Of a stretch of DNA of 64,000 bases, positions 4,596 through 8,488 are shown in pieces. Below the pieces are notes generated by a model. The model ran no database searches, was not told the origin of the DNA, and worked only from the letters and a program-made list of their open reading frames with translations. A program made the position numbers and the translations under genes. Origin of the DNA: Brevundimonas naejangsanensis DSM 23858. GTDB lineage: Bacteria > Pseudomonadota > Alphaproteobacteria > Caulobacterales > Caulobacteraceae. The stretch is from NCBI RefSeq assembly GCF_000421705.1, contig NZ_ATXN01000002.1, positions 992,001 to 1,056,000 on the forward strand, given 5' to 3'. The stretch's first letter is position 1, and the number at the start of each line of letters is the position of its first letter.

Positions 4596-5063
4596 TCAAC
4601 GGTCGCCGGTCGAGCGGCTGATGGCGGCCCTCATCCCTTCGGCGTGAAGAGCGCCGGACGGAGCGATCTTGTCGTTGGGGGTGTCGGCAGGGTCGGTATG
4701 GGCCGTGCGGTTGTCAGGGATGCCCTCATGCGTCTGTTCGGCCTTACGCTCTACGGCGGCCTTCAGATTGCGCGTCGCTGAGGTCGATGCACGACGGCGC
4801 TTCTGTTCCTCAGCTGCGCGCTCGATCGCCTCGGCCAGTTGCGCCTTCTTTTCACGCGCGCCCGTGTCGATATTGGCCTGCCCCTCGCGGCTGGCCTGGC
4901 GGGTGCGGGTGCGGATCATCCGCTGAGCGCGGTCGCGCCGCTCGCGCAGTCGTCGCAGCAGATCGGTCAGTTGCGTATCGGTCAGGTGCGCCGCCGCACG
5001 GCTCATCTCGACCCACTCCGTCTCATTACGGTCCAGGGCGCGGTTCTTGTCGGCTGCGGTCAT
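4596..5063 (-). CDS. Hypothetical charged, probably coiled-coil protein
   Basis: 155 residues, very rich in Arg, Glu, Lys and Ala. The start at 5063 is chosen because GGAGG lies five bases upstream; an ATG four codons earlier overlaps that site. Residues about 10-110 alternate charged and alanine residues (for example LTDTQLTDLLRRLRERRDR), suggesting long helices or a coiled coil. The tail is hydrophilic and probably disordered. There are no membrane segments or catalytic motifs. I do not recognise a family. It lies between thrC (convergent) and the terminator of the thrB operon, so it is probably expressed alone. Confidence 0.65.
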   Translation of the reverse strand: MTAADKNRALDRNETEWVEMSRAAAHLTDTQLTDLLRRLRERRDRAQRMIRTRTRQASREGQANIDTGAREKKAQLAEAIERAAEEQKRRRASTSATRNLKAAVERKAEQTHEGIPDNRTAHTDPADTPNDKIAPSGALHAEGMRAAISRSTGDR

Positions 5064-5155
5064 GCTGTCCTCCATTCTGAGATGTAGAGGGAGCGCATGG
5101 GCCGCCAAGCTTGTTCCCGGTTGCGGCGCCTTGTCCTGCCACACAGGCGGGAATG

Positions 5156-5187
5156 AAAAAGCGGCCCCTTCGCATGAAGAGGCCGCC
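5156..5187 (-). terminator. Rho-independent terminator after thrB
   Basis: Read on the minus strand, an 11-base stem GCGGCCTCTTC/GAAGGGGCCGC (one internal mismatch) with a short loop is followed by TTTTTC. It lies 16 bases beyond the thrB stop codon and closes the hom-thrB transcript. Confidence 0.8.
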
Positions 5188-5202
5188 TTGATCGCAGAGG
5201 GT

Positions 5203-6165
5203 TCAGGCCGGCTCCGCCGCCTTCCAGTAATCCAGGCGCCGGAAGAAGGGCGTCGGATCCTTGGGCGTGACGAGATTGGCCGGGTCGTGAAACAGCCGGT
5301 CATGCAGGCGCGTCAGGGTGAAGCGCACCGCCGCCGCCGCGCCGAGTTCCGGCAGGGCCTGACGCTCGGCGTCCGACAGGGGCCGCACCGACTCATAGCC
5401 CTTCTGGAAGGCGCGCAGGGCTGACGGCAGAGGCCGTCCCTCGGCGTCGAAGCCCCAGGCGCTGAGCGCGATGGCCAGGTCATAGGCCAGCACGTCGACG
5501 CAGGCGAAATAGAAGTCGATCACGCCGCCCACGTCGGTCGCCCCATGCTCGTTCACAGCAAACAGGACGTTGTCGGGGAAGTAGTCGGCGTGGATCGGGC
5601 CGCGCGGCAGCGACGCGTCGCTCCACGGTCGGGCCAGATCGGGCAGCAGGCGCTGCATCTGCTCCAGCATCCTGTGATCCTCGCCCGCAGCGACCGTATC
5701 GCAGCGCGCGGCCAGATCGGCCCAGACGCGCGGCCCGACCGGGTTCTCGCGCATGCCTTCATAATCGGCCGCATCGAGATGCAGCAGGGCCAGAACCTGA
5801 CCGGCGCGATACTGATCCTTGTCCGTCGGCTGGCGCTTCCAGGCGCCGGGCGTCCATTCAACAATGGCGGCGGCGCGATTGTTCAGGCGGCCGATCACCA
5901 GCCCTTCGCGATCCGCCACCGGCGCGGGCGTCGGAAAGCCCTGCGCCGCCAGCCGCCCCGTCAGGCCGAGGCAGAACGGCAGGGCCGAGGCCTCGGTCCG
6001 CCCCTCGAACAGGGTCAGAACATAGGCGCCCTTGTCAGTCACCAGACGGTAGTTGGTGTTCTCGACCCCCTCGGCGATCGGGGTCAGTTCGACCAGCCCG
6101 CCGAGAGGGTAGCGCATGAGATAGTCGTCGGCCTGTTGCGGCGTGACGGGCGTGAAGACGGCCAT
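5203..6165 (-). CDS. thrB: Homoserine kinase (choline/aminoglycoside-kinase-fold type)
   Basis: 320 residues. Phosphorylates homoserine to O-phosphohomoserine with ATP. It is the APH-fold homoserine kinase (ThrB type 2) used by many alphaproteobacteria rather than the GHMP type: the catalytic loop HADYFPDNVLF lies near 192-202 and the metal-binding VIDFYF near 215. The ATG at 6165 is used; the open frame upstream overlaps the previous gene in another frame. Only two bases separate it from the stop of the homoserine dehydrogenase fusion, so the two are one operon, ended by the hairpin at 5156-5187. Confidence 0.93.
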   Translation of the reverse strand: MAVFTPVTPQQADDYLMRYPLGGLVELTPIAEGVENTNYRLVTDKGAYVLTLFEGRTEASALPFCLGLTGRLAAQGFPTPAPVADREGLVIGRLNNRAAAIVEWTPGAWKRQPTDKDQYRAGQVLALLHLDAADYEGMRENPVGPRVWADLAARCDTVAAGEDHRMLEQMQRLLPDLARPWSDASLPRGPIHADYFPDNVLFAVNEHGATDVGGVIDFYFACVDVLAYDLAIALSAWGFDAEGRPLPSALRAFQKGYESVRPLSDAERQALPELGAAAAVRFTLTRLHDRLFHDPANLVTPKDPTPFFRRLDYWKAAEPA

Positions 6166-6167
6166 GA

Positions 6168-7904
6168 CTAGACAAGCTCCGCAGCGGCGCGCCGGGCGCG
6201 CATGACGTCGGCGACATCGGCCAGAACGCTCTCGGTCGTGGCCCAGCGCCCGGCGCCGCGCCCCTTGCACGTCCACACCCGGCCGTCCTGACCATAGACT
6301 TTCAAGGCGTTGCGCTCTCCGTTCAGCGACAGGAAGAGCGCGTCCTCAAGCGCGCCGTCAAGACGGACATAGGCGTCCAGTTCGCCGTCGCGGTCGAAAC
6401 AGGCGCCGATCTGGCGCACCGGCGCGTCGCCCAGCGGGGTTTCGGCGGCCAGCACGTCGCGCGGCAGGGCGTCGGGCGAACGGCCGAAGGCCTCGAACGA
6501 CAGCAGTTTGACCTTGGCCTCGGCGTCGAAGCCTTCCAGGTCCGAGGACGGGTCCTCCTCGGCGAAACCGGCGGCGCGGGCGTCGGCCAGGGCGTCGGAG
6601 AAGGTCGCCCCCTCGCCCAGACGCTGCAGCATGAAGTTGACCGTGCCGTTCAGCACCGCCTCGAAACCGACCACCGGACCGGCGGCGCGGGCGGCGCGCA
6701 GCGTTTCTATCATCGGCGAGCCCCCGCCGACCGAAGCCGACCAGGCGACCCGACAACCGTTGGCGTCTGCCAGGGCCTGCAGCCCTTTGGGATCGCGGGC
6801 CACGGCCTGTTTGTTGGCGCTGACCACGTCGCAGCCCGCCTCCAGCGCGCGGCGGATCAGGGCGTGACCCGCCTCGCCCTCGGACAGGGCTTCCAGCAAC
6901 AGGTCGGGTTTCTTGGCCAGCAGGGCGTCGACGTCATTGGTGAACAGTTCAGCCGGGGCGGCGACGTCGCGCGGCTTCTTCGGATCACGGACCAGGACGC
7001 CGACGACTTCAAAACGGCTGTCGGGCAGAAGGCGGCTGAGCAGACCCCCGCCGACGACCCCGCATCCGGCCACGGCCACCTTCAGCGCCGCCGCCGCCTG
7101 CACCGGCCCCGGAGGGGCGCCGCGATCGCCGACCACCGTGCCCTCGGCGCGGCCCAGAGCCGCCACTTCAATCTCGACCGCGCGGGCCTGAGCCAGGTCG
7201 ATGGCGTCATGCTGGACCAGGGCCCCGCCCACCTGGCGCGCCGTCTCCCATGAGGCGCGGCGATAGCGCACGGGCGTCCCCGCGCTGACCGCCGGATCGC
7301 GGTCGTAGAGGCCGTCCACATCCTTGACCAGCCGCACGCGGTTCAGTCCCAGTTCAGCCGCCAGAACCACCGCCGTCAGATCGGACCCGCCCCGGCCCAG
7401 CAGGGCGACGCGGCCGTTGGGCCGGACCGCGCCGAAGCCAGGCACGACCACCACCTCATGCGCCTCCAGCGCGCGTTGCAGTTGGTCGCCCTTGAGGCAG
7501 ACCGGGCGGGCGTGCTGGCTCGGCCCCTCCGCGATGATGCCCAGTTCCCGCACCGACAGGCCGATGGCGTCCAGCCCCACACGATCGCAGGCGACGGCGA
7601 CCAGGGCGGCAGCCTTTTCCTCGCCCAGCACGACATAGGCGGGCAGAAGCTCGTTCTCGTGGTCGAGGCCCAGGCTGCGCGCCTCGGACAGCAGCTTGTC
7701 GGTCTGGCCAGCCAGGGCGGAGACGACGGCGACCACCTTACGGCCGGCGCGGACGTGGCTGTAGATTTCGCTGGCGACGGCGGGGGCCTGAGAGGCGTCG
7801 CGCAGAACGGACGAACCGAACTTCAGCACCACCACTTCGGCGGCCGGAGCGAGGGCTTCAACTGGTTTGGGCTGGTCGGCGACGAGGGCGAGAGAGGCGG
7901 ACAT
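6168..7904 (-). CDS. Aspartokinase-like / homoserine dehydrogenase fusion lacking ACT domains
   Basis: 578 residues. Residues 25-262 are an amino-acid-kinase fold like aspartokinase: KFGSSVL (28-34), GRGGSDLT (170-177), VKDVDGLYDRDP (193-204). Residues 274-578 are homoserine dehydrogenase: Rossmann motif VAVAGCGVVGGG (276-287), SANKQAVA (362-369), LNGTVNFML (418-426) and the catalytic region DLEGFDAEAKVKLL (455-468). In ThrA-type enzymes paired ACT domains sit between the modules and sense threonine; here the join is about 12 residues long and neither end has room for one. The kinase signature differs from the usual KFGGTSV, so kinase activity is uncertain. Expression is likely controlled by the upstream threonine attenuator. 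Confidence 0.9.
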   Translation of the reverse strand: MSASLALVADQPKPVEALAPAAEVVVLKFGSSVLRDASQAPAVASEIYSHVRAGRKVVAVVSALAGQTDKLLSEARSLGLDHENELLPAYVVLGEEKAAALVAVACDRVGLDAIGLSVRELGIIAEGPSQHARPVCLKGDQLQRALEAHEVVVVPGFGAVRPNGRVALLGRGGSDLTAVVLAAELGLNRVRLVKDVDGLYDRDPAVSAGTPVRYRRASWETARQVGGALVQHDAIDLAQARAVEIEVAALGRAEGTVVGDRGAPPGPVQAAAALKVAVAGCGVVGGGLLSRLLPDSRFEVVGVLVRDPKKPRDVAAPAELFTNDVDALLAKKPDLLLEALSEGEAGHALIRRALEAGCDVVSANKQAVARDPKGLQALADANGCRVAWSASVGGGSPMIETLRAARAAGPVVGFEAVLNGTVNFMLQRLGEGATFSDALADARAAGFAEEDPSSDLEGFDAEAKVKLLSFEAFGRSPDALPRDVLAAETPLGDAPVRQIGACFDRDGELDAYVRLDGALEDALFLSLNGERNALKVYGQDGRVWTCKGRGAGRWATTESVLADVADVMRARRAAAELV

Positions 7905-7978
7905 GGACGTTTCCTGAAGGCTGGGTCTGGGAGGATTTTTAAGAGAGATCGGCGGGGTCAGAGTGGATTTAAGGCAAT

Positions 7979-8007
7979 AAAAAACCCGCCCGGGGGTCCA
8001 GGCGGGT
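7979..8007 (-). terminator. Attenuator terminator of the threonine operon
   Basis: On the minus strand CCCGCC (8006-8001) pairs with GGCGGG (7990-7985) and is followed by six T. It lies between the leader peptide and the homoserine dehydrogenase start, so it ends transcripts before the structural genes. A competing partner for the 5' arm, GGCGGG at 8061-8056, lies inside the last codons of the leader peptide. Ribosome stalling on Thr codons would leave that partner free and prevent the terminator from forming. Confidence 0.85.
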
Positions 8008-8045
8008 GATCGGTTTTCTGCGTGTCTCGCCCTAAACGGCGCGCA

Positions 8046-8147
8046 TCATCCGGTCCCCGCCCGCAAGGGCATGGTGGTGGTACCGGTGGTGGTAATCATG
8101 GACGCGAAGAGACCCGTCGCCGGGGCGGCGATGGTGGTCGTCTTCAT
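8046..8147 (-). CDS. thrL: Threonine operon leader peptide
   Basis: 33 codons, beginning MKTTTIAAPATG and continuing through MITTTGTTTM to a TGA. Eleven of 33 residues are Thr and two are Ile, with triplets of ACC/ACG codons, the pattern of thr operon leader peptides such as E. coli ThrL (known family logic; no similarity beyond composition is claimed). It lies just upstream of a terminator and then the homoserine dehydrogenase gene. No clear Shine-Dalgarno sequence precedes the ATG. The last codons contain the sequence able to form the antiterminator. Confidence 0.85.
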   Translation of the reverse strand: MKTTTIAAPATGLFASMITTTGTTTMPLRAGTG

Positions 8148-8160
8148 GCTGGCGAGGCGG

Positions 8161-8198
8161 TAAGGCACAGGCGGCGTCCGGTTGAAAATCGTGCCTTA
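8161..8198 (-). repeat. 8-base perfect inverted repeat at the start of the thr leader
   Basis: TAAGGCAC (8161-8168) and GTGCCTTA (8191-8198) are perfect inverted copies separated by 22 bases. They sit between the predicted promoter and the leader peptide, so they could be a 5' hairpin of the leader RNA or a protein operator. Confidence 0.5.
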
Positions 8199-8227
8199 GG
8201 GTGAGCCAGGGCGCCGCGTCGCGTCAA
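8199..8227 (-). promoter_or_regulatory. Probable promoter of the leader-hom-thrB operon
   Basis: On the minus strand TTGACGC (8227-8221) is followed after about 14 bases by GCTCACCC, resembling the Caulobacter housekeeping pattern TTGACG...GCTANAWC. Position relative to the leader peptide fits a transcription start near 8190. Confidence 0.45.
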
Positions 8228-8354
8228 CCCCGCATCGAAATAATTTTTCTCGACATCGCCCCAACAGGCCCATTTGGCCATCACCTTGGGGCGCTTTCGC
8301 CCAAACGGGGTGAAATTTTTCGCTTGACCGGCGCTCTTCGCAACCGCACCGTAA

Positions 8355-8488
8355 GCTCACTCATCAAGACCGGCTGAGGGATTAGGCCCTTTGACGCCGG
8401 GGCAACCATCGGGTTCCGCCCGAAACGGTGCCAACTCCTGCGGGGTTCTTCGGGCTTGCCTGAATGGACCGCGAGAGATGGGTGGAGC
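8355..8488 (+). ncRNA. SAM-I (S-box) riboswitch upstream of metX-metB
   Basis: The conserved S-box core is recognisable in order: CTCATCAAGA, TGAGGGAT, AGGCCC, then GGGGCAACC, and on the 3' side GGTGCCAACTCCTGC and GAGAGATG. The outer helix P1 closes with GCTCACTCATC (8355-8365) against GATGGGTGGAGC (8477-8488) with one bulge and one G-U pair. These elements bind S-adenosylmethionine in known SAM-I RNAs and switch off methionine genes. A following hairpin, GCGTCG/CGACGC (8487-8504), shares two bases with P1 and may be part of the expression platform; there is no U-tract, so control may be translational. Confidence 0.88.

Follow-up and report, generated by a model that had tools for sequence, protein, structure and literature searches.

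The hom-thrB operon of Brevundimonas naejangsanensis DSM 23858 is very likely preceded by a ribosome-mediated transcription attenuator, to which we assign a probability of about 0.87. In the window (the whole 64,000-nucleotide stretch of DNA that was analyzed), a conserved leader, predicted to be translated, is rich in codons for threonine, the product of the operon. By sequence and folding, an intrinsic terminator lies between this leader and the first gene, and an antiterminator that excludes the terminator is freed in silico by ribosome stalling and covered when the ribosome reaches the stop codon. Family matches indicate that hom and thrB make the amino acid that would be sensed. An earlier note had proposed a complete attenuator of this kind, and the conserved frame, the terminator, the competing pairing and the codon choice support that proposal. 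The leader frame, its start, the Thr block, the terminator, the competing pairing and the geometry of the element are derived from sequence comparison and folding.

Results

The leader as described in the earlier note runs from ATG 8147 to TGA 8046, and this 33-codon frame (8046 to 8147) with its 11 Thr and 2 Ile is indeed present exactly there. Coordinates refer to the window and, unless marked (+), to its minus strand. The frame is nested in the longer version that we favor, a 40-codon leader that likewise contains 11 Thr and extends from a GTG start to the TGA stop (8046 to 8168; MPYRLASMKTTTIAAPATGLFASMITTTGTTTMPLRAGTG). Its Thr control codons, ACC ACC ACC GGT ACC ACC ACC, occupy 8073 to 8093. 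Among the 773 short open reading frames (ORFs) of the window, the leader alone has at least six Thr in 12 codons, and no other combines at least five Thr with a terminator downstream. When the window was shuffled 30 times with its dinucleotides preserved, giving 1016 short ORFs per shuffle on average, ORFs with six or more Thr in 12 codons arose at a mean of 0.07 per shuffle, while ORFs with five or more Thr plus a terminator did not occur.

The gene behind the leader, hom (6168 to 7904), encodes a 578-amino-acid protein in which an aspartokinase-like domain is fused to homoserine dehydrogenase (HSD). Its AA_kinase, NAD-binding and homoserine dehydrogenase domains (PF00696, PF03447 and PF00742) were found with no ACT domain among the Pfam matches, and it is the sole PF00742 match in the genome. 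The next gene on the strand is thrB (5203 to 6276), a homoserine kinase of the APH type (TIGR00938, 290 bits; PRK05231, 305 bits) whose family match begins at residue 38 of the ORF. The order of a homoserine dehydrogenase fusion followed by thrB, as previously read from the letters, was thus confirmed by family matches, and the two genes presumably share a single transcript. A 235-amino-acid ORF past thrB (4596 to 5303) has no Pfam match. On the other side of the leader, a SAM-I riboswitch (8358 to 8484 [+]; RF00162, 77.9 bits) precedes the divergent metX-metB genes, so that, with the Thr leader, one intergenic region contains two amino-acid RNA sensors.

For comparison, we collected 80 loci, of which 64 were of the Brevundimonas type (60 to 98% identical in Hom), making 65 with the window; the nearest relatives by Hom were Brevundimonas, at up to 98% identity. 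The remaining 16 loci (L064, L066 to L069, L071 to L075 and L077 to L082) were left out of this count. The leader and the terminator were found in 62 of the 65 Brevundimonas-type loci, which are related, so that counts over them are not independent. Two others were not judged, L009 with only 46 nt of upstream sequence and L058 with its gene cut by a contig end, and in L060 the fusion hom lies directly behind a metB-like gene without a leader.

A -35-like element of the putative leader promoter, TTGACG, lies at 8222 to 8227; its TTGAC is conserved in all 62 aligned loci, 172 to 205 nt ahead of the leader end. The probable -10 region (CTCACCCTAAGG, 8194 to 8205) corresponds to a partly conserved block 22 to 31 nt past the -35 element, and a consensus scan found no sigma-70-type promoter. 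Measured from TTGAC, an in-frame GTG, TTG or ATG occurs at 55 to 68 nt in 61/62 loci (1/62 and 2/62 in the other frames), and the frame is open from the start position to the stop in 62/62 (58/62 and 3/62). Start and open frame coincide in 61/62 loci, compared with 1/62 and 0/62, and in 33/33 non-redundant representatives, compared with 1/33 and 0/33; these start and frame counts depend on a stop codon fixed by choosing the leaders for their Thr content. The sole locus without one of the three start codons, L021, has CTG there. Leader length differs between loci by whole codons, and the Thr-rich block is kept across the 62 loci. The comparison with the 61 relatives therefore favors GTG 8168, which is probably the start, over the previously proposed ATG 8147, a codon confined to the diminuta-bullata group among the aligned loci. 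Neither ATG 8147 nor a core ATG at 8099 is common to all clades, the latter being absent from locus L004. At the protein level, constraint on the N-terminal half of the leader is weak (pN/pS of 0.75; the other frames have 0.91 and 0.88).

The rho-independent terminator noted earlier behind the leader was recovered as a hairpin (ACCCGCCTGGACCCCCGGGCGGGT, 7984 to 8007) of 10 pairs and -20.1 kcal/mol, followed by a U tract (a T run in the DNA) at 7979 to 7984. The hairpin is present in 62/62 loci, with a mean of -21.7 kcal/mol. Competing with it is a segment at 8051 to 8063, in the leader codons Arg-Ala-Gly-Thr, which pairs with the 5' arm of the terminator. The two hexamers singled out in the earlier note, CCCGCC at 8006 to 8001 and GGCGGG at 8061 to 8056 (within the codons CGG GCG GGG), are correctly located and can pair, but the antiterminator extends beyond their six pairs. 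We find instead an outer helix of about 8 to 10 pairs plus a short second helix, which together join the last codons of the leader to the stretch just ahead of the terminator. In the window, this duplex has a predicted energy of -24.0 kcal/mol, compared with -20.1 kcal/mol for the terminator hairpin, and its mean over the loci is -23.4 kcal/mol. The leader RNA as a whole is structured (z of -3.0), and the minimum free energy fold of the untranslated RNA contains a protector (1:2) hairpin at 8050 to 8086.

We then folded the RNA in its different translational states, assuming a ribosome footprint that reaches 12 nt past the A-site codon. Untranslated RNA formed the terminator in the window and in 50/62 loci overall, and did not in 12/62. 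When the ribosome was placed on the core Thr codons, the nascent 5' arm of the terminator paired with the leader for one position or more in 62/62 loci, and this stalled-state antiterminator was still the best fold beside the complete terminator in 45/62. For the window itself, the terminator was the better fold at four of six Thr stall positions and the antiterminator at two. In 17/62 loci, the terminator was the better equilibrium fold at every stall position tried, and antitermination there would thus have to be kinetic. Placing the ribosome at the stop codon gave the terminator in 62/62 loci. Of the earlier proposal that a stalled ribosome leaves the pairing segment free and one that finishes the leader covers it, the second part is reproduced by the model in every locus and the first as a best fold in 45/62. 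As also anticipated, close relatives keep the leader frame (61/62 for start and frame) and, by folding in most loci, the alternative pairing.

The earlier note expected the pairing segments to co-vary, for which these sequences leave little room. The antiterminator columns are nearly invariant and the RNAalifold covariation term is only -0.34; since these columns hardly vary, covariation is silent, and support comes from codon choice instead. Within the antiterminator, Ala is encoded by GCG in 61/62 loci, compared with 34% in window genes, and Gly by GGG or GGA in 60/62, compared with 30%. GGC, which accounts for 61% of Gly codons in window genes, is used for this Gly in 0/62 loci. The antiterminator codons therefore follow RNA pairing and not common usage. 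Throughout these comparisons, window genes are a set of 38 genes selected for their length and GC3.

Thr, Ile and Met are products of homoserine. In the 14-codon core of the 33 representatives, Thr makes up 41% of residues, a share biased by the selection of leaders for Thr content, followed by Gly (13%), Met (12%) and Ile (11%); should some of the leaders begin at an internal ATG and not at the GTG, a few core Met would be start codons. The corresponding values for window genes are 5.2, 9.6, 2.2 and 4.2%. Ala, which like Ile and Met is one mutation away from Thr, is scarce in the core (2.4%, compared with 13.8% in window genes). This composition suggests that the leader may sense Ile and Met besides Thr. 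That it monitors all three homoserine end products is a tentative proposal, which we rate somewhat below even odds. Met codons averaged 1.5 in the leaders of genomes with at least two PF00742 matches (two-HSD, n = 11) and 2.8 in one-HSD leaders (n = 25), a weak contrast uncorrected for phylogeny (Mann-Whitney p of 0.003, kinship ignored). In the two-HSD set, the second match of G340 is partial at a contig end and that of G337 may be contamination, G318 and others are drafts, and the Met count of L171 was entered by hand. Membership of the one-HSD set was assumed and not derived by assigning each locus to its genome, and G301, whose second match is a short fragment, was kept in it. Thr codons of the leaders are ACC in 168/190 cases (33 representatives); window genes use ACC for 50% of their Thr and the hom genes of 15 loci for 31%. 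ACC is also the Thr codon of the Escherichia coli thr leader (PMC1183508). Hom and ThrB (5203 to 7904) shun the residues in which their own leader is rich: of the 38 window genes, these two have the lowest content of Thr, Ile and Met combined (4.5 and 7.8%, mean 11.8%), a tendency known as low cognate bias (PMC4209129).

The spread of the element was examined in 299 Caulobacteraceae genomes, whose species overlap those of the loci, with a covariance model built from 33 Brevundimonas sequences; coming from the same genus, this model shows spread and position and is not an independent discovery. The fusion gene was present at 60% identity or more in 54 genomes, and the element was found in 52 of these at 85 to 115 bits. 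No other genome reached 85 bits, the next match scoring 41 bits. In 51/52 of these genomes, the match immediately precedes the fusion hom and shares its contig; in the remaining one, G102, element and hom fall at the ends of two separate contigs. The genomes that have the fusion but no such match are G294 and G252, which contain the contigs of L060 (metB-like gene, no leader) and L058 (contig end), respectively. At E values up to 0.1, weak matches occurred in 225/299 genomes, and the 17 places below 42 bits that we read were in some cases leaders with other amino acids and otherwise gene ends with terminators.

Several other leader-plus-terminator units were seen along the way. In another Caulobacteraceae genus, a His-rich leader (MSGFAHHHGCHHHPTLAGPDRERLA) with a terminator (L143, about 690 to 810) directly precedes a gene that by eye resembles hisS or hisZ. 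Further units (L136, L137, L138 and L141) are Ile/Val-rich (AAAIIIITEPVVG) or Thr/Ile/Met-rich (MTTTMTMITP, TTTMIIITPTIGTG). In a Proteobacteria metagenome-assembled genome (L069), a Thr/Ile/Met-type leader ending in MTIIITTTMTTTTELGANGA and then a terminator stand directly before an aspartokinase-homoserine dehydrogenase (AK-HSD) fusion of 40% identity, with a metB-like gene of the same strand ahead of the leader. Like the Brevundimonas element, it is a Thr leader with a terminator before such a fusion. Two fusions from the same taxonomic order (L212 and L213) showed no leader by eye in 300 nt. In Planctomycetota (L064, L067, L071, L072 and L080), a metB-like gene with a Thr-rich tail ending in ARQL precedes the AK-HSD fusion; no terminator was seen in these five loci, and they were rejected as attenuators. 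The more distant fusions of the genera g14 and g3 (37 to 46% identical) had no short ORF with more than four Thr in 12 codons at the 21 places read (19 of 25 for g14 and 2 of 2 for g3), and a Thr leader was rejected there. Among 385 genomes spread over the class, the fusion was found at an E value of 1e-70 in the window's genome alone.

Brevundimonas also contains shorter homoserine dehydrogenases, and in 15 stretches upstream of these we found no short ORF with more than three Thr in 12 codons. Eight of these stretches (L084 to L088 and L091 to L093) clearly contain the end of a metB-like gene. The short proteins of L083 to L089 and L091 have a degenerate aspartokinase-like N terminus: 8 of 10 tested matched the aspartokinase portion of Hom weakly, with E values up to 0.001 (the value for L091), with about 31 to 52% identity over 25 to 110 residues, and L092 and L093 had no match. 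Fusion hom and short hom occur together in G117, G189 and G282. Sixteen of 131 Brevundimonas genomes, several of them listed as 99 to 100% complete, have no PF00742 match and are possible auxotrophs.

Discussion

In the mechanism that we propose, RNA polymerase would start upstream of 8168 and a ribosome would begin the leader at GTG 8168. With plentiful threonyl-tRNA, the ribosome would reach the stop codon at 8048 to 8046 and cover the segment at 8063 to 8051, and the terminator at 8007 to 7984 would then halt transcription ahead of hom. A shortage of threonyl-tRNA would stall the ribosome in the Thr block (8093 to 8073), the antiterminator segment would pair with the 5' arm of the terminator, and polymerase would enter hom-thrB. 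Untranslated RNA would fold its own protector hairpin and transcription would terminate. Starvation for Ile and Met may also release the attenuator. The transcription start, translation of the leader, termination in the cell and the response to threonine are steps that we infer.

We weighed this mechanism against other readings of the same element. The poorly conserved N-terminal half of the leader peptide would suit a plain terminator that limits readthrough or yields a small RNA, behind a Thr-rich ORF that is neither translated nor regulatory. This is improbable given that start codon and frame are kept together in 61/62 loci against 1/62 and 0/62 in the other frames, that the Thr block is kept and the antiterminator codons are chosen as they are, and that the element is absent before the fusion hom of L060, which lies behind a metB-like gene, and before the 15 short hom genes. 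The same lack of constraint on the N terminus argues against action of the leader RNA or peptide in trans on other mRNAs, with attenuation as a by-product or second function, and we consider such action equally improbable; its precedents are rnTrpL and peTrpL of Sinorhizobium meliloti, an alphaproteobacterium (PMC10117765 and PMC7298713). Least probable of all is an RNA that binds threonine or tRNA, a riboswitch or T-box not driven by the ribosome. The structured leader (z of -3.0) would agree with it, but no such family appears among the five Rfam matches at 7850 to 8350 (E values up to 10), the weak best match is the peptide-dependent Thr_leader, and the conserved reading frame would stay unexplained.

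That match, to RF00506, scored 15.8 bits (E value of 2.4), below the gathering score of 55, and its alignment spans the whole model from the Thr codons to the U tract. The cut-off was reached in 0/100 Caulobacterales genomes and a weak match occurred in 28/100; nine such places read in other Caulobacterales contained no Thr leader. Among 14 control genomes, one reached the cut-off, and E. coli was among the four with any match. The E. coli thr operon begins with an aspartokinase-homoserine dehydrogenase fusion gene, and its leader contains Ile codons. E. coli thrL and the Brevundimonas leader are alike in being Thr-rich, with a terminator and a competing antiterminator. Unlike thrL, the Brevundimonas leader has a GTG start, 40 codons, and Met besides Ile codons; the 578-amino-acid fusion of the window, unlike the E. 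coli system, has no detected ACT domain, and its thrC is on the other strand. Vitreschak et al. reportedly predicted in 2004 a Thr/Ile/Met attenuator of thrA in Pasteurellales, which likewise serves a single AK-HSD gene with Thr, Ile and Met codons, but in Gammaproteobacteria.

The earlier note regarded attenuation as little documented in Caulobacterales. For threonine we came across no description in the literature searched, but attenuation as such is described for the ilv operon of Caulobacter crescentus (PMC4117421). That case is leader-peptide attenuation in the same bacterial family but with Ile/Val codons, and neither threonine nor homoserine turned up in a term search of the paper's main text. 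In S. meliloti, the SEP5 small ORF, which carries six Thr codons and lies in the 5' untranslated region of an "aspartate dehydrogenase" gene, was proposed as a leader peptide and is said to be conserved in Sinorhizobium only (PMC10117765). Unlike the Brevundimonas leader, SEP5 has three Lys codons besides Thr and precedes another gene. It was the only similar case among the matches listed in a search for threonine leaders in Brevundimonas, Caulobacter and alphaproteobacteria, a search that mostly lay outside the subscription literature, and an earlier description of the Brevundimonas leader may exist.

Judged by its sequence, the Brevundimonas element would be a new, lineage-specific example of classic leader-peptide attenuation. 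It would extend threonine attenuation to a genus of Alphaproteobacteria, in a distinct sequence attached to a fusion hom, in an order, Caulobacterales, where the Rfam threonine-leader model has no match at its cut-off. The genus offers a natural experiment, with hom carrying its own Thr leader, hom behind a metB-like gene without a leader, or both. If the leader does read all three end products, the 0.66-kb hom-metX region would hold two RNA sensors, this attenuator and the SAM riboswitch, that divide the flux of homoserine.
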